A DNA stretch of 42,855 nt from Candidatus Jordarchaeum sp. JNZ_1113 (GTDB lineage: Archaea; Asgardarchaeota; Jordiarchaeia; Jordiarchaeales; Freyrarchaeaceae): assembly GCA_019057715.1 (NCBI GenBank), contig JAHLWW010000001.1:1-42855 (forward strand), read 5' to 3'. Below are positions 19,529 to 30,291 of the stretch, piece by piece. Made by a program: the position numbers and the translations under genes. The first letter of the stretch is position 1. Every line of letters begins with the position of its first letter. The notes beneath the pieces are model-generated. The model was not told where the DNA came from. It saw only the letters and a list, made by a program, of their open reading frames with translations, and searched no databases.

Positions 19529-20056
19529 TTACTTTTGGGTTGCAGTCCTATAGATTATCTCTGCTATTTTTTGGAAGGCTTCCTTTACCCCTGCTCCTGT
19601 AAAGGCACTTGTTTCGAAGTATGGCAACCCACCGAGGCGCATGGCAAGTTCTTCTCCCATTTCATGAGTCACTTTACGGTGCTCCTCTAAATCGATTTTG
19701 TTGGCAAGGAGTACACCCGGCACTTCACCGCATTCCTTCACGAGCTCGTTTTTCCAGTTTACTAAACTGAGGTAGCTTTCAGGCCGGCAGACGTCATAAA
19801 CATAGATTGCACCTGCAGCACCTCTATAAAAAGACGAGCGTACTTCTTTAAACTGTGGCTGCCCAGCTAAGTCCCACAATTGAAGTTTAATTATAACGCC
19901 ATCTACTTCAACATTCTTAACGGCAAAGTTCGCTCCTATGGTCATTATGTAATCTGACTGAAACTTCTCTTCGGTGTACTTTTTAATCAAGCTGGTTTTT
20001 CCTACAGCACCGTCTCCCACAACAACTATCTTAAAAATGTACTTTGCTTGGCTCAA
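19529..20056 (-). CDS. Rab/Ras-like small GTPase
   Basis: The 175-residue protein has every G motif of a Ras-superfamily GTPase and looks most like the Rab branch: G1 GDGAVGKTS (14-22), G2 Thr39 in MTIGANF, G3 WDLAGQ (61-66), G4 NKID (119-122) and G5 TSAFTG (149-154). The glutamine after DxxG, needed for GTP hydrolysis, is present. There is no C-terminal Cys for prenylation and no membrane helix, so it should be cytoplasmic or recruited by a partner. No roadblock-type partner or exchange factor gene is adjacent. The frame is open to a GTG at 20065; TTG 20056 is preferred because AAGGTG lies six bases before it. It stands alone, in a 280-base upstream gap. Confidence 0.92.
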   Translation of the reverse strand: MSQAKYIFKIVVVGDGAVGKTSLIKKYTEEKFQSDYIMTIGANFAVKNVEVDGVIIKLQLWDLAGQPQFKEVRSSFYRGAAGAIYVYDVCRPESYLSLVNWKNELVKECGEVPGVLLANKIDLEEHRKVTHEMGEELAMRLGGLPYFETSAFTGAGVKEAFQKIAEIIYRTATQK

Positions 20057-20344
20057 GTCTAACACCTTGTAACTTTAAAGTGAACCTTAACGTTTTCAGT
20101 AAGTAATTGCAAAGAGCGCTAAATAATAATTTTCTGGTAAAACTTTTTAAATTTACTGGCAACAAATTATGAAAGCTTATAGATAAGTAGGATAGTGTTC
20201 AGAAAAAACGAAGCAAAATTGCCTATAACTAAATGACAGAACAGAAATGTTGAACATTTATTTTTGATAAAAACCAAATTTTAACAAGAAACATACAGAT
20301 GTTTTCTATACGTTGTTAGACTTCCTTACTTTTAGAAGGTTAAC

Positions 20345-21995: not shown

Positions 21996-23462
21996 TTGGT
22001 GGGACGTGAGGAGGCAATAGCTGTTTTTGACGTGGGAACAACAGGTGTTCGTGCTTTGTTGTTTAACCTTGAAGGTTCCATCTTGGGAGGAGCTTACGAG
22101 GAGTACCCTACTATTTCTGAGCATCCAGGGCAGTCAGAGCAAGTTCCCGATGTTTGGTGGGAGGCTTCATGTAGGACTATTCAGTCTGCATTGAAGAACG
22201 CACATGTTTCTCCATCAGATGTGGTTGCCGTTAGCGTCTGCACACAGAGGGCGACAATTTTTCCTGTCGATAAGAGTGGGAGACCGCTTTACAGGGCATT
22301 AACTTGGATGGATACACGAATGTCTCCTTCAGCGAAAAAGCTAAAGAAGGTGATAGGGCAAAGAGAAAGCTTGAATAAGGTCCTCTGGATAAAGGACAAT
22401 GTTCCTTCAGTCTTCGAGCAGACATTTAAGTTCCTTTTCGTTGACTCCTACTTTTACTTTAAGTTAGCAGGAGTTTTTGTGTCAGATCTTTCCAATGCGT
22501 TTTATGGTCCATTTGATGTTGAAAAACTGTCTTGGAATGAAAAATTAGCTGATGAGGTAGGAGTTCCCCTAGACAAGTGGGTTGAAGTTTACCCGTCGGG
22601 AAAGGTTGTCGGCGAGGTGACAGTGGAGGCTGCAAGGGAAACCCAGCTTAAAGCTGGAACACCGGTAGTCGTTGGTGGGGGAGACCAGCAGTGTTCATGC
22701 GTCGGAGTTGGGGCAGTGAGACATGGAATAGTTAAAGTAACCACTGGAACAGGGACGTTCGTAGATGCACTTATAGATAAGCCGATTTACGACCCGTTCG
22801 GCATACTTTTCACGTTACCCCACGTCCTAGAAGGAAAATGGGTTGTTGAGGGAGTCATTCCGGGGACTGGAAGCATTCTCAGGTGGTTCCGCGACAATTT
22901 TGGGCATCTAGAAAAGAAGGTGGCAGAAGACGTCGGCGTGGACGCGTACAGCATACTTGAAGACGAGGCGGAAACAGTTAGCCCTGGATCTGACGGGTTG
23001 CTTGTAATACCGTTATTCAATTTCGGTAAGGGCGCTATTTACAATTTGTCTTTTGCACATAGCAGAAGACATATAATCCGAGCGATAATGGAGTGTAACG
23101 GGTTTGGAATAAGGGGACTCTTAGATATTATTTCGGGAATGGGAATTGCCGTCGAGGAGCTTAGGATAGATGGAGGAGGCGCCAGATCCAAACTTTGGAG
23201 GCAAATACAGGCTGACGTAACGGGTAAACGGATTTCCGTGCCCTGCATTGAGGAAGCTGGAGCGCTTGGGGCGGCGATTCTAGCATCGAAAGGAGTTAAG
23301 TTGTTCCCATCTGTAGAGAAAGCGGTAGAGAGCATGGTTAAAATTTCAGAGGTAAGAGAGCCAAGACACGAGAACAAGAGGGTCTATGACGAAATGCACC
23401 CTGTCTTCATGAAGCTCCTGCTTTCTAGCTACTCCGAGATTACAGGGCAAAGTCAAAACTGA
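21996..23462 (+). CDS. FGGY-family carbohydrate kinase, glycerol-kinase-like
   Basis: This 488-residue sugar kinase has both actin-like ATPase domains: the phosphate-1 loop AVFDVGTTGVRALLF, the CTQRATIFPVD segment, WMDTRMS, the catalytic Asp in GGGDQQCSCVG, phosphate-2 TTGTGTFVDA, and adenosine loop IDGGGARSKLW. GDQQ is the glycerol kinase form of the catalytic motif, and the gene leads the GlpABC cluster, so phosphorylation of glycerol to glycerol 3-phosphate is the first guess. However, the glutamate after arginine in the glycerol-binding R-E pair (E. coli Arg83-Glu84) is alanine here, and I cannot find the equivalent of Tyr135. A different polyol or keto-triose substrate such as dihydroxyacetone is possible. 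The TTG start has GGGAGG upstream. Confidence 0.82.
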   Translation: MVGREEAIAVFDVGTTGVRALLFNLEGSILGGAYEEYPTISEHPGQSEQVPDVWWEASCRTIQSALKNAHVSPSDVVAVSVCTQRATIFPVDKSGRPLYRALTWMDTRMSPSAKKLKKVIGQRESLNKVLWIKDNVPSVFEQTFKFLFVDSYFYFKLAGVFVSDLSNAFYGPFDVEKLSWNEKLADEVGVPLDKWVEVYPSGKVVGEVTVEAARETQLKAGTPVVVGGGDQQCSCVGVGAVRHGIVKVTTGTGTFVDALIDKPIYDPFGILFTLPHVLEGKWVVEGVIPGTGSILRWFRDNFGHLEKKVAEDVGVDAYSILEDEAETVSPGSDGLLVIPLFNFGKGAIYNLSFAHSRRHIIRAIMECNGFGIRGLLDIISGMGIAVEELRIDGGGARSKLWRQIQADVTGKRISVPCIEEAGALGAAILASKGVKLFPSVEKAVESMVKISEVREPRHENKRVYDEMHPVFMKLLLSSYSEITGQSQN

Positions 23463-23517
23463 GAGCAGAAATAATGGAAAAATGGTAAAATATTGTTGTT
23501 AAATAAGGATTTTTGAG

Positions 23518-25161
23518 ATGGTGGTCATGGAGGATTACGATGTTATAGTTATTGGTGGAGGATCAACGGGTACCAGTGTTGCGAGAGACTGCGCTATGCG
23601 TGGCTTTAGAACCATTCTCTTCGAGAGAGGCGACCTTGCGTCGGGCGCTACGGGTGCATGCGCTGGCATGATTAGTGGAGGAACAAAGTATGTGCTCCAG
23701 GAGCCGGAGTTCTCGGAGATGTGCACAAGGGAAGTTGTAACGCTCTCCCGGATAGCTGGGCACATAGTTTTCAGGACACCCATAATAACGGCAATATTGA
23801 CTGAGGAGGAAATTAAGCTTAGGGCTAGCTTCGTTGAGAAGTACGGTGCGTTAACAGAGAAGAGGCAGGCAAGCCCGATTCTGATTTTATCTCCTCAAGA
23901 GGCTAGGAGCCTTGAGCCCAAATTGAGCAATAATATTATTCTGGCAGCTTATTTTGACGAGATGTTCATTGATCCATTTAGGCTGACTGTTCTCACAGCC
24001 CTCTCCGCTAAGCAACACGGGGCAGAGATAAGAACGTACACTGAGGTCGTCGATGTTCTTCATAGGGACGGAGAAGTTTATGGAGTTAGGGTTAAGGATA
24101 GGTTAACCGGCAGGGATGAAGAGATAAGAGGCAGAATTGTAGTTAATGCCGCTGGAGCGTGGGTTCCGGAAATCTCGAGAATAGTGGGAATCAAGCAGAC
24201 GTTAAGGCTTAACAAGGGGGCGCATGTCGTCTTCGATAGGAGAATTACGAGGTTCGGGATAATATGCCGAGCATTAGATGGGAGAACAGTATACTTATTC
24301 CCCCACGAGACCGGGTCAATTTTGGGCACGACCGCAATAGACATATTCACTAGCCCGGATGAAGCTGAAGCGACTTATGATGAGATCGAGTACTTGATTT
24401 CAAGTATGGAGATGGCTGTGCCGTCAGTGAGAGATGCACGCATAGTCAGAGTCATGTGTGGAGTTAGACCGCTAATAGCTCAATGGTGGGTGCCTGAGGG
24501 GGATGTAACAAGAAATTTCAGGGTGATTGACCATGAGGAACGTGACGGTGTTAGGGGTCTGGTAAGCGTTGAAGGGGGAAAACTTGTTGTCTGCCGAGCT
24601 ATGGCCGAGAAAATAACTGACCTGGTTTGCGAGAAGCTTGGAAGAGAAGCCGAGTGCAGAACTCACCTAGAGCCTCTGCCGGGGGCAGACGGAAAAGTTA
24701 ACGTGGAAGAGATAGCTTCAAGGTATCACTTTTCACCGCACACTGCTGGGCGGCTTATCTCAAGGCAAGGCACTTTATCCAGTATTGTCCTATCGGAAGC
24801 AAGTAACGAAAGAAGTCTCCTTTCAAGTGTTTGTCTATGCGAGGCTGTTACTGAGGCTGAGCTACGACACGTCATAAGGAACGAGTGGGGGGTGACTCTA
24901 GACGCCCTGAGGAGACGAACTAGGATGGGTATGGGTCCATGCCAAGGATTCTCCTGCGGATTTAAAGCTATGGCGATTCTAGCTGAGGAGAGGGGGATGG
25001 GAGTTGAAGAGGCTTTTAGAGAGCTTGAAAGGTTTCTAGCCGAAAGATGGAGAGGGCACATTGTTGTTTTAAGGGGAAGCCAGCTCAGCGAGTATGAGAT
25101 GACGCAGGCGGCTTATGCCTGTGTTGGGTCAATCGACATGAAAGTCGGTGAGGAGGAGTGA
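23518..25161 (+). CDS. glpA: Anaerobic glycerol-3-phosphate dehydrogenase subunit A
   Basis: GlpA oxidises sn-glycerol 3-phosphate to dihydroxyacetone phosphate with FAD. The 547-residue protein has the FAD site VIVIGGGSTGTSVARD near the N-terminus, the family patch SGATGACAGMISGGTKYVLQ, the FDRRITRFGIICRALDGRTVYLFPHE active-site region and the TTAIDIFTSPDEAEATYDEIEYLI strand. At the C-terminus a BFD-like 2Fe-2S site VCLCEAVTEAE...MGPCQGFSCG is present, as in E. coli GlpA. The first ATG is used here; ATG 23527 with GGTGG just upstream is an alternative. It is 55 bases after the kinase, and an AT-rich box there may allow separate transcription. Four bases separate its stop from the glpB start. 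Confidence 0.93.
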   Translation: MVVMEDYDVIVIGGGSTGTSVARDCAMRGFRTILFERGDLASGATGACAGMISGGTKYVLQEPEFSEMCTREVVTLSRIAGHIVFRTPIITAILTEEEIKLRASFVEKYGALTEKRQASPILILSPQEARSLEPKLSNNIILAAYFDEMFIDPFRLTVLTALSAKQHGAEIRTYTEVVDVLHRDGEVYGVRVKDRLTGRDEEIRGRIVVNAAGAWVPEISRIVGIKQTLRLNKGAHVVFDRRITRFGIICRALDGRTVYLFPHETGSILGTTAIDIFTSPDEAEATYDEIEYLISSMEMAVPSVRDARIVRVMCGVRPLIAQWWVPEGDVTRNFRVIDHEERDGVRGLVSVEGGKLVVCRAMAEKITDLVCEKLGREAECRTHLEPLPGADGKVNVEEIASRYHFSPHTAGRLISRQGTLSSIVLSEASNERSLLSSVCLCEAVTEAELRHVIRNEWGVTLDALRRRTRMGMGPCQGFSCGFKAMAILAEERGMGVEEAFRELERFLAERWRGHIVVLRGSQLSEYEMTQAAYACVGSIDMKVGEEE

Positions 25162-25165
25162 AAAA

Positions 25166-26491
25166 TTGATTGAGACAGAGATCCTCGTTATAGGTGGCGG
25201 AGTGGCTGGGCTACTAGCCGCAACCAAAGCTACAGACGAAAAATTGGAAGTGACGGTCATCGACAAGGGTTCAGGAGCCAGTTATCAGTCGTCTGGAGTA
25301 ATTGACGTTATGGGGTGCCCTCTGGGAGAAGCCACCTTAAAACCCATTGAGGGGATCGCTCAGGTAATCGAGTGTTCGCCGTCGCATCCATACTCTGTTA
25401 TTTCGAGTGAGAGGAACGTAACTAACGTTATTAAGGACGCTATCAGATATCTAACGAGCATGGCTTCTAATCGTGGAGTCGAATTTAAAGGAGAAATTGA
25501 GAGAAACGTTGTTCTTCTAAATACCATTGGTAGTTTTAAGTTAACCTGTTTTTACCAATCAACGATGGACAGGGGAGTATTGCATAAATTGGAGGGGGCA
25601 TCGTTACTCGTCACAGGCTTTAAGGGCTTAGTTGGATTTAACGCGCGCTTTTGCTCCTCTAGCTTCAAGCACTTCGCATCAAAATTTAACATTGAGCTAA
25701 GAAAGACGTCTAGTACTGAACTTTCGCTTCCAAGTTTAAGAGAATTCAACTTGACAATTATAGAATTAGCAAGAATGATGGATGAAGATGATTTCAGGAA
25801 AGATTTGGCTAAAAAACTGGAAACTGAAATAGCCGTAAATGACGTCTCACATGTAGCTCTCCCAACACTTGGACTAAAGAAGCCCTACGAAAACATGAGG
25901 ATATTTGAGGAGGAGACGGGTACTAGCGTATTTGAACTTGTTTCGCCACCCCCATCGGTACCAGCCCAGAGACTAATGGAGGCGCTTGAAGAGGAAGCTA
26001 TTGAAAGAGGCGTAAGAATTTTTAGAGGCTACAAAGCGGTTGGGTTTGAAGGGGAAGGAAGAAGCATTAAGAGCGTTACACTCGCGTCAGGAGAGAAGCG
26101 TTTTCCTGCAAAAGCTAAAGCCTACATTTTGGCTACGGGAAAATTCATCGGAGGAGGAATAGTAGAGGAAAGAGACAAAGTAAAGGAGACTGTGTTCAAC
26201 TTGCCCTTATACGATGAAAAAGGGGAGCCGCTCAAGAGACAAAATATTTCGCGGCTTCTCGCTAAGTCTCCCTTTCCACGAGAAGGACACCCCCTCATGG
26301 GGTGCGGAGTGAAAGTTAACGCCCAGATGAAGCCTGTGGTGAATGATGAAGTCGCATATGATAATCTTTTTGCTGCAGGATCAATAATTTCAGGCTACAA
26401 TTACGTGAGGGAGAAAAGCGGTATGGGCGTCGCGGCAGTTACAGGCTACATAGCGGGGATGAACGCGGCAACACATGTAGAAGGCGGGTGA
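25166..26491 (+). CDS. glpB: Anaerobic glycerol-3-phosphate dehydrogenase subunit B
   Basis: GlpB is the second flavoprotein of the GlpABC complex and relays electrons from GlpA to the Fe-S subunit. The 441-residue protein opens with ILVIGGGVAGLLAATKA, has the SSGVIDVMGCP patch characteristic of GlpB, the LGLKKPYENMRIFEEETGTSVFELVSPPPSVPAQRL segment, the late FAD segment NLFAAGSIISGYNYVREKSGMGVA, and the C-terminal TGYIAGMNAA. The frame extends to a GTG at 25148, but TTG 25166 has GAGGAGGAG at good spacing and starts close to the FAD motif. The gene ends within the ribosome binding site of glpC (GGGTGA). Confidence 0.9.
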   Translation: MIETEILVIGGGVAGLLAATKATDEKLEVTVIDKGSGASYQSSGVIDVMGCPLGEATLKPIEGIAQVIECSPSHPYSVISSERNVTNVIKDAIRYLTSMASNRGVEFKGEIERNVVLLNTIGSFKLTCFYQSTMDRGVLHKLEGASLLVTGFKGLVGFNARFCSSSFKHFASKFNIELRKTSSTELSLPSLREFNLTIIELARMMDEDDFRKDLAKKLETEIAVNDVSHVALPTLGLKKPYENMRIFEEETGTSVFELVSPPPSVPAQRLMEALEEEAIERGVRIFRGYKAVGFEGEGRSIKSVTLASGEKRFPAKAKAYILATGKFIGGGIVEERDKVKETVFNLPLYDEKGEPLKRQNISRLLAKSPFPREGHPLMGCGVKVNAQMKPVVNDEVAYDNLFAAGSIISGYNYVREKSGMGVAAVTGYIAGMNAATHVEGG

Positions 26492-26496
26492 GTTCT

Positions 26497-27714
26497 ATGA
26501 GGAGGAAGGAGCTTGAACATATAGACAAGGTTCTCGCCGAGGAAAAAATAGTAGTTTTTTCTCCTTATGAGGATGAAATTTATAGTGAAATAGAAAAATG
26601 CCAGAATTGCTCTTTGTGCCTTACGTTTTGCCCCGTCTTCGAAGCTACAGGCGAGTTTTACCCTGGACCGCGGGGGATAGCTGACGAACTTTCTAGAGAT
26701 GTAAGAGAATTCTGGAGGGCGAGTAGTATAGTCTACATGTGCACTTTATGTGGCCGCTGCCAGGAAAGGTGCCCAGTTAACGTCCCAATACCTGAAGTAG
26801 TCATGCTTCTCAGGTCGAAAATATTCGTTCAGAGACCTGACCTTGTGCCAGAGGGACTTAAAGTTCTCCTAGAAAACGTTTCAAGGTACGGCTACATTTT
26901 TGAGCCCATGAATCCTGAGGAAAGGGAGGAAAGTCTTAGGGGGAGACTGGAAAGGATCGGTTTACCTTTAAGAGGCGATCCGCCTCTTAGGAGTGGACTG
27001 GTAGCTTACTTTCCGGGCTGTCAGGCTGAAACTAGGTTGCTTGAAGTTAAAGAGGCTGGGAAACTTGTTCTAGAAGCCTTCGACGTGGATTATGGGATCC
27101 CTGAAAAGTGGAAATGTTGCGGTCTTCCTGTAAGGTTGATTGGTGACTCAGCAATGGCTGACGAGCTTCAGCGTAGCTTTCTCGAAGAAATGGAGAGAAT
27201 GAACGTGACTGATGTTGTTGTTACTTGCGCGGGGTGCGCTTCGGAGTTAAAATCGGCAACTAAGCGGCTGGGTTCAGGCATCCGTGTAAGGCACCTAGTT
27301 GAGCTTCTTTTCGAAGAAGTAGGTGTTGAGACTATAAGCAGGAAAGCTCGTGTTAGCGACAAAGTTAAAGTTACGCTTCATGAGCCTTGCCATTTAAGCA
27401 GACACATTGGAAGGTATACTATCGATTACGCGGAGGAAATACTCAGGGCTTTGCCGAATGTTGATTACGTCGGCATGCGGGGGGCTGACGAGTGTTGCGG
27501 CGCTGGGGGACTTCTTAAGTTTCACAATCCATTCGTTTCTGCAACTATAAGGAACAAAAAACTTGAGAAAATTTCAAGATCTGGAGCTGAGGTTGTGGTG
27601 GCTCCATGCCCTCTTTGCTCGGTCAACATATCCGAGGGGGCCGCTAGAAAAAGGGTTAGTGTTGGAGTGGATGACCTTGCAGTCTTCCTAGCTAGAAGGA
27701 TATACTCGGAGTAG
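26497..27714 (+). CDS. glpC: Anaerobic glycerol-3-phosphate dehydrogenase subunit C, Fe-S / CCG protein
   Basis: GlpC carries electrons from GlpAB to the membrane or another carrier. The 405-residue protein has two 4Fe-4S ferredoxin motifs, CQNCSLCLTFCP (from residue 35) and CTLCGRCQERCP, and two CCG domains of the HdrB/GlcF/LutA kind: YFPGC...WKCCGLP...CAGC and HEPCHLSRHIG...CCGAGG...CPLC. There are no membrane helices. ATG 26497 is chosen because GGGTGA lies just upstream; a GTG at 26488 overlaps the glpB stop. The gene runs straight into the FAD-oxidase gene, whose Shine-Dalgarno overlaps the glpC stop codon. Confidence 0.92.
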   Translation: MRRKELEHIDKVLAEEKIVVFSPYEDEIYSEIEKCQNCSLCLTFCPVFEATGEFYPGPRGIADELSRDVREFWRASSIVYMCTLCGRCQERCPVNVPIPEVVMLLRSKIFVQRPDLVPEGLKVLLENVSRYGYIFEPMNPEEREESLRGRLERIGLPLRGDPPLRSGLVAYFPGCQAETRLLEVKEAGKLVLEAFDVDYGIPEKWKCCGLPVRLIGDSAMADELQRSFLEEMERMNVTDVVVTCAGCASELKSATKRLGSGIRVRHLVELLFEEVGVETISRKARVSDKVKVTLHEPCHLSRHIGRYTIDYAEEILRALPNVDYVGMRGADECCGAGGLLKFHNPFVSATIRNKKLEKISRSGAEVVVAPCPLCSVNISEGAARKRVSVGVDDLAVFLARRIYSE

Positions 27715-27726
27715 GAGGTTTAAGTT

Positions 27727-29160
27727 TTGAGCAACAAGAAGTTGGGTGATTTCTGGAGGAACGTTGTCTATGAAGAGCTAGTCAGCATAGTGGGGCAAGA
27801 GAATGTTCACTGCGATGACGCAGATTTACTTTGTTATTCACGCGACACGTGGCAGCTGACTGTCCCCTGGATTAAGGGGGGAGGAAAGCTTCCCGAACCT
27901 GACTTTATAGTACATCCTGAAAGCGCGGAGCAGGTATCGGAAATAGTTAAGTTAGCTAACAGATTCAAAATACCTCTTATACCCTTCGGGGGAGGAGCTG
28001 GAGTCTGTGGCGGAACGATCCCAGTCTATGGAGGAATCATAGTTGACCTAAAAAAAATGGACAAGATAGTTAGGGTTGACCACAAATCGCTACTAGTAAC
28101 TGTTCAGCCGGGCATCCTAGGGGAGATTCTGGAAAGAGAACTGAACAGGATGGGTTACACGTTCCCTCACTACCCTGCATCCATGTATTGCTCAACGGTA
28201 GGCGGCTTCGTAGCTTGCCGCTCGGCAGGCTCGCTTTCATCCAAATATGGAAAAATAGAGGATATGGTTGTTGGGCTTGAAGTCGTCATACCAACAGGTG
28301 AGATAATAAGAATAAAACCTGTTCCCCGATCATCCACGGGGCCGGACTTAAAGCAATTATTCATAGGATCAGAAGGAACGCTTGGAATAATAACGGAGGT
28401 TACATTAAAGATAAAGCTTCTCCCAGAGGAAAGGAGATTCAGGGCATTCATATTCAAGGACCTTCATTCAGGGATAGAATCGGTCATTAAGATCTTCCGG
28501 AGAGGGCTGAAGCCATGTGTAATACGCCTCTACGACTATCTTGATGCGCAGTTCACCCTTAAAGGAAAAGCAGAGATCCCTGAGGGAGGCTCGTACTTAA
28601 TATTGGGTTTCGACGGCATGAAAGAAATGGTTGATTTAGAGGAAAAAACGGCTACAAGGATTTGTTTGGATGAAGGAGGCGCCGAAGTGGACAGAGAACT
28701 AGCAGAGCACTGGTGGAAACACAGGTATGACATGTACTACCCTGACGCTTTCAAGTCGTCTTATAGCATAATAGCCGACACTGTGGATGTTGCGGCACCA
28801 TACGACAAGCTCGAAGAGCTCTACTGGACCATTAAAAGGACTGTTGAGTCGAGGAATCCAGGTGTGACCATGATGGCGCATTTCTCACACTTCTATGAGG
28901 ATGGAGGTTCGATATACATGATCTTCTTCACTCAGCAGCAGAACCATGAAAAGGCAGTGAGAGTTTACAGCTCTGTTTGGAGAGACGCTCTAGAGGCATG
29001 TCTAAAAGTTGGCGGGACAATAAGCCACCACCATGGTGTAGGACTAGTTAGGGCGGGATGGATGCACAAGGAGCACGGAGACGCTTTTAGTGTTCTGAAG
29101 GCAATTAAAAGGGCATTGGACCCAAACAACATTATGAATCCCGGGAAGCTTGGACTATAA
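27727..29160 (+). CDS. FAD-linked oxidase resembling alkylglycerone-phosphate synthase (GlcD/AGPS superfamily)
   Basis: The 477-residue protein is a PCMH-type FAD flavoprotein: FGGGAGVCGGTIPVYGG binds the FAD pyrophosphate, followed by YCSTVGGFVACRSAGS and IEDMVVGLEVVIPTGEI. Several segments look more like alkylglycerone-phosphate synthase than plain glycolate or D-lactate oxidases: the SSTGPDLKQLFIGSEGTLG block, PCVIRLYD with its conserved Arg, and especially SHHHGVG with three adjacent histidines at 434-436. AGPS swaps the acyl chain of acyl-DHAP for an alkyl chain; related archaeal and bacterial proteins may instead oxidise 2-hydroxy acids. Its partner appears to be the Fe-S protein that follows 18 bases later, in the arrangement of GlcD-GlcF. 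TTG start with GGAGG eight bases upstream. Confidence 0.85.
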   Translation: MSNKKLGDFWRNVVYEELVSIVGQENVHCDDADLLCYSRDTWQLTVPWIKGGGKLPEPDFIVHPESAEQVSEIVKLANRFKIPLIPFGGGAGVCGGTIPVYGGIIVDLKKMDKIVRVDHKSLLVTVQPGILGEILERELNRMGYTFPHYPASMYCSTVGGFVACRSAGSLSSKYGKIEDMVVGLEVVIPTGEIIRIKPVPRSSTGPDLKQLFIGSEGTLGIITEVTLKIKLLPEERRFRAFIFKDLHSGIESVIKIFRRGLKPCVIRLYDYLDAQFTLKGKAEIPEGGSYLILGFDGMKEMVDLEEKTATRICLDEGGAEVDRELAEHWWKHRYDMYYPDAFKSSYSIIADTVDVAAPYDKLEELYWTIKRTVESRNPGVTMMAHFSHFYEDGGSIYMIFFTQQQNHEKAVRVYSSVWRDALEACLKVGGTISHHHGVGLVRAGWMHKEHGDAFSVLKAIKRALDPNNIMNPGKLGL

Positions 29161-29178
29161 GGAAAAGGGAGGCAAAGG

Positions 29179-30291
29179 ATGAGCGCAGACCCTATAGTTT
29201 TATGTGGAATAGAATGTATGAAGATGTGCCGCTTTGTTTGTGTCGCCGCGAACCAGCTTAAGCTTGAAACGGTAACTCCCTACGGGAAATGCTTCTTAGC
29301 ATACTACTTACGCAAGGAAGCGATAACCGGAAGGGGAAGAGTTGCGGAGGCTATGTATCAGTGCGCGACTTGTGGTTTGTGTAAGGAGTGGTGTTTGCCG
29401 AAAGTTGATATTCCAGAAATAGTTAAGGAGGTAAGGGCGAAGCTAGTTAAAGATGGAAATGCTCCTGAGCCCACGCTCGAAATAGGCAAGAAGACGAAGA
29501 GCGAAAAGAACCCCTATGGTGAGCCGCATGAGAAAAGATTCGCTGCACTTAACAAGAAAGGTAAAAGTAAAATGGGAAGCGTAGCTTACTTTGTCGGCTG
29601 CACCTCGGCTTACAGGCAGCTGAACATAGTAAATGCTATGGCTAAAATACTTGAACACACTGAGGGAGAATTCACATTAATAGATGATGAGTGGTGTTGC
29701 GGGGCTCCACTTTTGTCGACGGGACATATAGAGCTGGCTAGTGAGCATGCTGAGCATAACAAGAAGGCGATCGAGGACTCAGGATGCAGCGTTGTCGTTA
29801 CGTCATGCGCAGGATGCTACATGGCGCTCTCCCGGTATTACCCAAAAATGGGGTTCCCGCTAAAAGTCGAGGTCGTGCACCTAAGCCAGTACTTGTGGAG
29901 TGCGATAAGCGAGGGGAAACTTAAATTGAAAAAATCGGGGAAAGGTGGTGTGAAAGTGACTTATCATGATCCTTGCCATCTGGGGAGACACATGGGTGTC
30001 TACGACGAGCCGAGAAGCGTTCTGAGTAGCATACCTGGCGTTCAGCTTGTTGAAATGGATTGGAACAGGAGAAATTCGAAGTGTTGTGGTAGCGGCGGAG
30101 GGCTCCAGCTGAACTTTCAGGAGCTGGCTCGAAGGATAGGCATAGAGAGGATTAGTGAGGCCGTGGCGACAGGAGCAGAATTTTTAGTCACGGCATGCCC
30201 GTTCTGCAAAAATCAGCTTGAAAGCGTAGCGGAAGGAAAAATAAGGGTTTACGACCTCGCCGAAATAGTCGTTGAGCACTTGAAGGTCTAG
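29179..30291 (+). CDS. CCG-domain Fe-S oxidoreductase, HdrD/GlcF-like, with an unusual first cysteine set
   Basis: A second CCG protein in the operon, 370 residues. The C-terminal half has the two CCG domains (VGCTSAYR...WCCGAPL...CAGC and YHDPCHLGRH...CCGSGGG...CPFC) that bind noncubane clusters in HdrB. A normal ferredoxin motif CATCGLCKEWCLP lies at about 62-74. The N-terminal motif is odd: Cys9, 13, 17 and 21, each three residues apart, not the usual C-x2-C-x2-C-x3-C. It probably takes electrons from the FAD oxidase next to it. No membrane subunit is present. ATG start with AGGGAGG upstream; the stop overlaps that of the convergent ArsA gene in CTAG. Confidence 0.88.
   Translation: MSADPIVLCGIECMKMCRFVCVAANQLKLETVTPYGKCFLAYYLRKEAITGRGRVAEAMYQCATCGLCKEWCLPKVDIPEIVKEVRAKLVKDGNAPEPTLEIGKKTKSEKNPYGEPHEKRFAALNKKGKSKMGSVAYFVGCTSAYRQLNIVNAMAKILEHTEGEFTLIDDEWCCGAPLLSTGHIELASEHAEHNKKAIEDSGCSVVVTSCAGCYMALSRYYPKMGFPLKVEVVHLSQYLWSAISEGKLKLKKSGKGGVKVTYHDPCHLGRHMGVYDEPRSVLSSIPGVQLVEMDWNRRNSKCCGSGGGLQLNFQELARRIGIERISEAVATGAEFLVTACPFCKNQLESVAEGKIRVYDLAEIVVEHLKV

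Follow-up and report, generated by a model that had tools for sequence, protein, structure and literature searches.

An Asgard archaeal operon joining a non-canonical FGGY kinase and GlpABC-type genes to an AGPS-like flavoprotein is a candidate module for the catabolism of a glycerol-like compound distinct from free glycerol

The window analysed here, 42,855 nucleotides of contig JAHLWW010000001.1 from Candidatus Jordarchaeum sp. JNZ_1113 (assembly GCA_019057715.1), contains an operon of six genes at positions 21996-30291 on the plus strand, which we interpret as a catabolic module that phosphorylates a compound resembling glycerol, though not free glycerol itself, assigning this reading a probability of roughly 0.58. 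There is good evidence, from sequence comparison, that the operon does not serve plain glycerol catabolism. Profile searches identified, in order, an FGGY kinase, GlpA, GlpB, a GlpC-like protein, a FAD_binding_4/FAD-oxidase_C protein (hereafter, the FAD protein) and a second CCG protein (CCG2). The open reading frames (ORFs) are collinear, with gaps or overlaps of +55, -14, -4, +12 and +18 bases; their positions and profile matches confirmed an earlier reading of the DNA letters (the original prediction), which had described six closely packed genes of these families on one strand. The host is an Asgard archaeon with a genome assembly of 1.83 Mb in 219 contigs, 70% complete.

The kinase departs from glycerol kinases at the substrate pocket. 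The glycerol kinase signature of Zhang et al. comprises R83, E84, Y135, D245 and F270; four of these residues form hydrogen bonds with glycerol (PMC3245297), and the same glycerol contacts have been described elsewhere (PMC2680290). Alignment to E. coli GlpK revealed that the window kinase reads RARDF at these positions, with alanine replacing E84, arginine at the Y135 position and a shortened loop near residue 135. Judged by this five-residue signature, the window kinase is not a glycerol kinase. Furthermore, it fell under every NCBIfam cut-off for FGGY kinases (TIGR01311, 212 bits against 590), although a paralogue in the same genome that carries REYDF also misses the TIGR01311 cut-off (369 bits), and its best PDB matches were LsrK (211 bits) and GlpK (203 bits). 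In an independent study, Manoharan et al. found carbohydrate kinases to make up most of the 'glpK' homologues of Asgard archaea (PMC6737245).

The same loss was observed in kinases encoded near FAD genes of the same type, whose products carry the triple-histidine (HHH) motif described below. All 57 kinases lying within eight genes of an HHH-type FAD gene have lost the E84/Y135 pair and kept R83 and D245, whereas REYDF was retained by 22 of the 27 kinases found outside the neighbourhoods of HHH-type genes and of a related E/D-HH type; a few loci in this set represent one genome obtained via two collections. Within Asgard archaea, the pair is missing from every linked kinase (47/47), while 21 of 25 unlinked kinases read REYDF. 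The four unlinked exceptions include two Hermodarchaeal kinases located 10-12 genes from their FAD gene, and obvious extra pathway genes were not found at these Hermodarchaeal loci. The HHH-linked kinases do not form a single lineage but fall into two or more, and one of these is nested beside E. coli GlpK. Moreover, a GlpK homologue on a Microbacterium plasmid (552 bits with the GlpK model), which is encoded beside an HHH-type gene and GlpD and was examined after the pattern had been set, reads RAVDF.

The window GlpA is altered as well. It scored 450 bits, under the TIGR03377 cut-off of 552.8, whereas its paralogue in the same genome passes at 581.5 bits. Alignment indicated that it keeps Y55, R317, R332 and K354 (E. 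coli GlpD numbering), which we take to be active-site positions; serine stands in place of H50 and lysine in place of R54, as in the other aligned Asgard copies located beside FAD/CCG2 genes. The paralogue belongs to a second operon, on contig C70, consisting of the REYDF kinase, GlpA, GlpB and a GlpC-type gene, with neither a FAD gene nor CCG2, and REYDF-type operons are also present in a close relative (G002) and in three genomes of the same order (G004, G006 and G007). Read most simply, these data would assign glycerol to the C70 operon and some other compound to the window operon; Asgard archaea would thus carry a pair of parallel kinase-GlpABC operons, of which just one is expected to act on glycerol. 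Because the kinase signature is lost and a separate canonical GlpK-GlpABC operon exists, the window operon probably does not simply process G3P (sn-glycerol 3-phosphate) derived from glycerol. Compared with E. coli GlpK-GlpABC, the window operon shares a kinase with A, B and C subunits, including a GlpB that passes its model cut-off, but differs in its kinase, in its GlpA and in the added FAD/CCG2 genes. The three subunits are present in order; the previously suggested connection of GlpABC to a pool of G3P and dihydroxyacetone phosphate (DHAP) probably does not hold in its simple G3P-from-glycerol form.

Gene order was compared across 62 other Asgard genomes, each counted once after four loci from a second collection (L060, L067, L072 and L075) had been dropped from 66; the counts are minima, since some contigs end early. 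CCG2 adjoins the HHH-type FAD gene in 58 genomes, a same-strand FGGY kinase lies within six genes of it in 49, and GlpA does so in 29, whereas kinase proximity by chance was estimated at about 1% (each genome having some two or three FGGY genes at the search threshold). The complete order recurs in the same genus (L039 and L040), in G066 and in many Thorarchaeia; Lokiarchaeia keep the FAD, CCG2 and FGGY genes, with GlpABC absent from the locus; and G145 combines an FGGY kinase and a GlpD-type dehydrogenase with CCG2 and the FAD gene. Genes of the G3P-dehydrogenase type accompany the kinase and FAD genes as GlpABC in Asgard archaea, at one Asgard GlpD-type locus (L053), and in Acidimicrobiia and Bacteroidales, where GlpD, an AGPS-like gene and a kinase form trios with no transporter adjacent. 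Because the order is conserved across the phylum, a chance neighbourhood can be ruled out, and the recurrence in close and distant relatives on which the original prediction was to be judged was indeed observed. The module is a variant of the kinase-GlpABC arrangement that is widely conserved in Asgard archaea. Conserved radical SAM and GNAT neighbours in Thorarchaeia gave no hint of the substrate, and our literature search found no publication tying the operon to Asgard archaea, nor any useful paper on the AGPS residues or on AGPS in archaea. In one Lokiarchaeal locus (L067:12389-13228), a PF00561 alpha/beta hydrolase lies directly 3′ of the kinase, and ORFs of similar size occupy this place in other Lokiarchaeal loci.

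The FAD protein had been proposed to be AGPS-like, and profile, tree and active-site residues all supported this. Searched as a single sequence, its best PDB match was AGPS (E = 5.6e-67, against 6e-49 for D-lactate dehydrogenase); the family profile scored 352 bits against AGPS and 242 bits against D-lactate dehydrogenase, while E. coli GlcD reached only 63 bits against AGPS. A Foldseek search with an AlphaFold model (predicted local distance difference test score, 84.9) likewise placed AGPS first (4e-39), with LDHD close behind (1e-37). In a 31-row bootstrapped tree, a branch with 100/100 support parted the window family, AGPS and E. coli YgcU from GlcD, LDHD and LctD, and a 76-row tree agreed on this placement. 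The approximately unbiased (AU) test rejected a grouping of the Asgard proteins with GlcD/LDHD/LctD (p = 0.0136), so that the phylogeny proposed as a check on the AGPS assignment did not place the protein among GlcD or D-lactate dehydrogenases.

Consistent with the tree, the active-site alignment showed that the window family carries R419 and Y578 (AGPS numbering) together with HHH or HQH. In the window protein, R267 corresponds to R419, a tyrosine occupies the Y578 position, and the histidines aligned with AGPS 615-617 lie within the SHHHGVG motif, which had been noted previously and was verified at residues 433-439; H434 and H436 are invariant across 15 Asgard orthologues. In contrast, GlcD types in the same alignment have glutamate at position 419 and mostly DGNxH and GEHG, a metal motif that is not found in the window protein. 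Solved mutants of AGPS include Arg419His and Tyr578Phe.

Nevertheless, sequence comparison indicates that the window protein is AGPS-like rather than an AGPS orthologue, because AGPS R515, present in the eukaryotic AGPS and Bacteroidetes rows, is missing from the window and Asgard rows, and because eukaryotic AGPS clusters with Bacteroidetes proteins (98/94 support). The R515 column is not firmly aligned for E. coli YgcU, since a second alignment of fewer sequences gave this protein, too, an arginine there. The window protein further differs from AGPS (PDB 2uuu and 4bby) in its length (477 against 584-658 residues) and in its CCG partner. Three Bacteroidetes AGPS-like proteins encoded next to GlpD (L108, L120 and L114) carry R515, and in the 31-row tree no prokaryotic proteins lie closer to eukaryotic AGPS than L108 and L120. 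In the FAD tree, two records titled Bifidobacterium breve and Bathyarchaeota (L102 and L089) fall among Acidimicrobiia and Lokiarchaeota; they are probably mislabelled bins. A sister clade of the FAD protein, from Clostridia (L074 and L077) and UASB270 (L062), has E/D-HH replacing HHH; its gene clusters contain either CCG, class II aldolase, PfkB, IolB-like, FGGY and electron transfer flavoprotein (ETF) genes or ATP-binding cassette (ABC) sugar importers, apparently a cyclitol or sugar pathway.

CCG2, which presumably accepts electrons from the FAD protein, contains 18 conserved cysteines, and its two N-terminal four-cysteine motifs (C9, C13, C17, C21 and C62, C65, C68, C72) were missed by Pfam. 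Relatives of the FAD protein with CCG or ETF partners point to dehydrogenase action; there is moderate evidence that the FAD/CCG2 step is a redox reaction. The absence of a membrane subunit had been taken to suggest a soluble acceptor; this does not follow, because classical E. coli GlpABC likewise has no integral membrane subunit (maximum hydropathy of E. coli GlpC, 1.28) and nonetheless reduces menaquinone (PMC11962113).

Collectively, these observations suggest a catabolic scheme of three steps, probably in the order given. The FGGY kinase, having lost the E84 and Y135 contacts, would phosphorylate a primary hydroxyl of the substrate; the altered GlpA (GlpA′) with GlpB and GlpC would then oxidise the secondary hydroxyl beside the phosphate to a DHAP-type product, passing electrons via GlpB and GlpC; and the AGPS-type FAD protein with CCG2 would dehydrogenate either the substrate or an intermediate, delivering electrons to the Fe-S centres of CCG2. 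Several observations count against this scheme. AGPS, the sole family member with a demonstrated substrate, catalyses a redox-neutral exchange, so that the third step could be non-redox, and no CCG gene adjoins the family members of Acidimicrobiia and Bacteroidales. Where a bacterium has a GlpD with a canonical active site, this enzyme may just oxidise G3P freed by another step. Two alphaproteobacterial HHH-type genes adjoin xylulokinase-type kinases (AHTDT), indicating that a glycerol-like kinase keeping R83 and D245 is not universal. Finally, most of the unlinked control kinases were retrieved with the GlpK model, which favours REYDF among them, and the Fisher p value for the kinase pattern (9e-16) is overstated, since related genomes are not independent.

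Two substrate classes seem most likely to us: one is a C4/C5 polyol or sugar acid, the other a 1-O-alkylglycerol. Both are sub-cases of the proposed catabolic module, and their likelihoods overlap with the figure given for it. For the first, which we consider plausible yet tentative, the FAD/CCG2 pair would initially oxidise a small polyol or aldonate, the kinase would phosphorylate the product, and GlpA′BC would oxidise the resulting phosphate. Some bacterial relatives occur with aldolase, PfkB, IolB-like and ETF genes (neighbour names read from sequences), whereas others neighbour ABC sugar importers and xylulokinases, or else PdxA together with a C4-acid kinase. The rhizobial ery locus offers a precedent (PMC3599248), its eryAB genes (erythritol kinase and erythritol-phosphate dehydrogenase) following the logic of an FGGY kinase with a GlpD-type dehydrogenase; it demonstrates that the substrate of a GlpD-type enzyme can be a polyol phosphate. 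However, EryA is only 22% identical to the window kinase, on which ground we rejected orthology, and its signature is GDCDT rather than RARDF; no AGPS-like gene is annotated in the ery locus inspected, and sugar importers and downstream sugar enzymes are missing from the Asgard loci.

The second, ether-lipid salvage, is in our view unlikely. Here an alkylglycerol kinase would act first, GlpA′BC would convert alkyl-G3P to alkyl-DHAP, and the AGPS-type protein would cleave the ether without oxygen to DHAP and an alcohol or aldehyde, with electrons passing to CCG2. The predicted GlpA′ product, alkyl-DHAP, is what AGPS is known to make, and no other enzyme with such an active site has been characterised; without E84 and Y135, moreover, the kinase pocket could be open towards the unphosphorylated end of the substrate. 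Furthermore, a transporter was adjacent in none of the Asgard, Acidimicrobiia and Bacteroidales loci inspected by eye, the PF00561 hydrolase follows the Lokiarchaeal kinase, and Thorarchaeia have an aldehyde dehydrogenase gene downstream. The association of HHH-type relatives with sugar importers and xylulokinases, or with PdxA and the C4-acid kinase, argues against salvage, as does the missing R515 in Asgard archaea. According to a 2021 review, the only known alkylglycerol-cleaving enzyme is AGMO, a monooxygenase (PMC7911779); oxygen-independent salvage spread over Asgard archaea and paralleled by the GlpD-AGPS-kinase trios of Acidimicrobiia and Bacteroidetes would carry the same low likelihood.

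It is very improbable that the FAD protein is a true AGPS making alkyl-DHAP for bacterial-type ether lipids. The catalytic residues and fold are of the AGPS type, but R515 is missing, AGPS needs no CCG partner, and a gene of the glycerol-1-phosphate dehydrogenase family is present in a close relative. No PF01553 acyltransferase was found in the window genome (about 70% complete), the genus, the order or the Thorarchaeia searched, other acyltransferase families not having been searched; there is thus no obvious source of acyl-DHAP, which makes a biosynthetic role unlikely, and we rejected it on this absence together with the lost R515. An equally improbable alternative, a GlcD-type dehydrogenase for 2-hydroxyacids (D-lactate or glycolate) beside ordinary glycerol catabolism, has in its favour the fold shared with GlcDEF, LctD and D-lactate dehydrogenases, the near-equal Foldseek score of LDHD, the CCG partners typical of that group and a best NCBIfam match to TIGR00387, albeit far under its cut-off, but was rejected on the separate clade and active-site residues described above and also conflicts with the conserved linkage to a non-GlpK kinase.

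If the proposed module is correct, labelling both Asgard operons 'glycerol kinase/G3P dehydrogenase' would mislead arguments on G3P and the lipid divide. The comparison also assigns the enzyme that underlies ether lipids in eukaryotes to a wider prokaryotic family whose members travel with kinases lacking the glycerol signature, and, should the substrate prove to be an ether, the operon would offer a first genetic handle on how ether lipids are broken down anaerobically. A laboratory relative is available in E. coli ygcU/ygcE. The ygc locus (YgcU, YgcE, YgcP and YgcQR; L139) resembles the window operon in pairing an HHH-type FAD protein of the same superclade with an FGGY kinase, but the putative flavoproteins YgcQR replace CCG, no G3P dehydrogenase is present, and YgcE has the signature RC-DA. 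The locus also encodes a putative antiterminator, YgcP, presumably GlpP-like. Literature searches on ygcU/ygcE returned only unrelated papers.

Table 1. Genes of the operon, with positions in the window.
Feature	Position	Strand	Details
FGGY kinase, altered glycerol pocket	21996..23462	+	488 aa; PF00370/PF02782
GlpA-like flavoprotein subunit with BFD [2Fe-2S] domain	23518..25161	+	547 aa; DAO, DAO_C, Fer2_BFD; TIGR03377 450 bits
GlpB, second flavin subunit	25148..26491	+	447 aa; TIGR03378 195.9 bits against cut-off 174.15 (passes)
GlpC-like Fe-S subunit	26488..27714	+	408 aa; Fer4_8 and PF02754; two CX2CX2CX3C motifs and two CCG modules
AGPS-like FAD protein	27727..29160	+	477 aa; PF01565/PF02913; HHH 434-436
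CCG2 Fe-S protein	29179..30291	+	370 aa; PF02754 x2; two four-Cys motifs and two CCG modules

The operon is flanked by TrmO upstream and by a Get3/ArsA ATPase on the opposite strand downstream. Elsewhere in the window, a Ras/Rab-like small GTPase gene (19529-20065; judged by eye) adjoins an MfnA-like decarboxylase gene and fits the Asgard origin, and an inositol-3-phosphate synthase-like gene (799-1878), scoring under its model cut-off, may serve the synthesis of inositol lipids.

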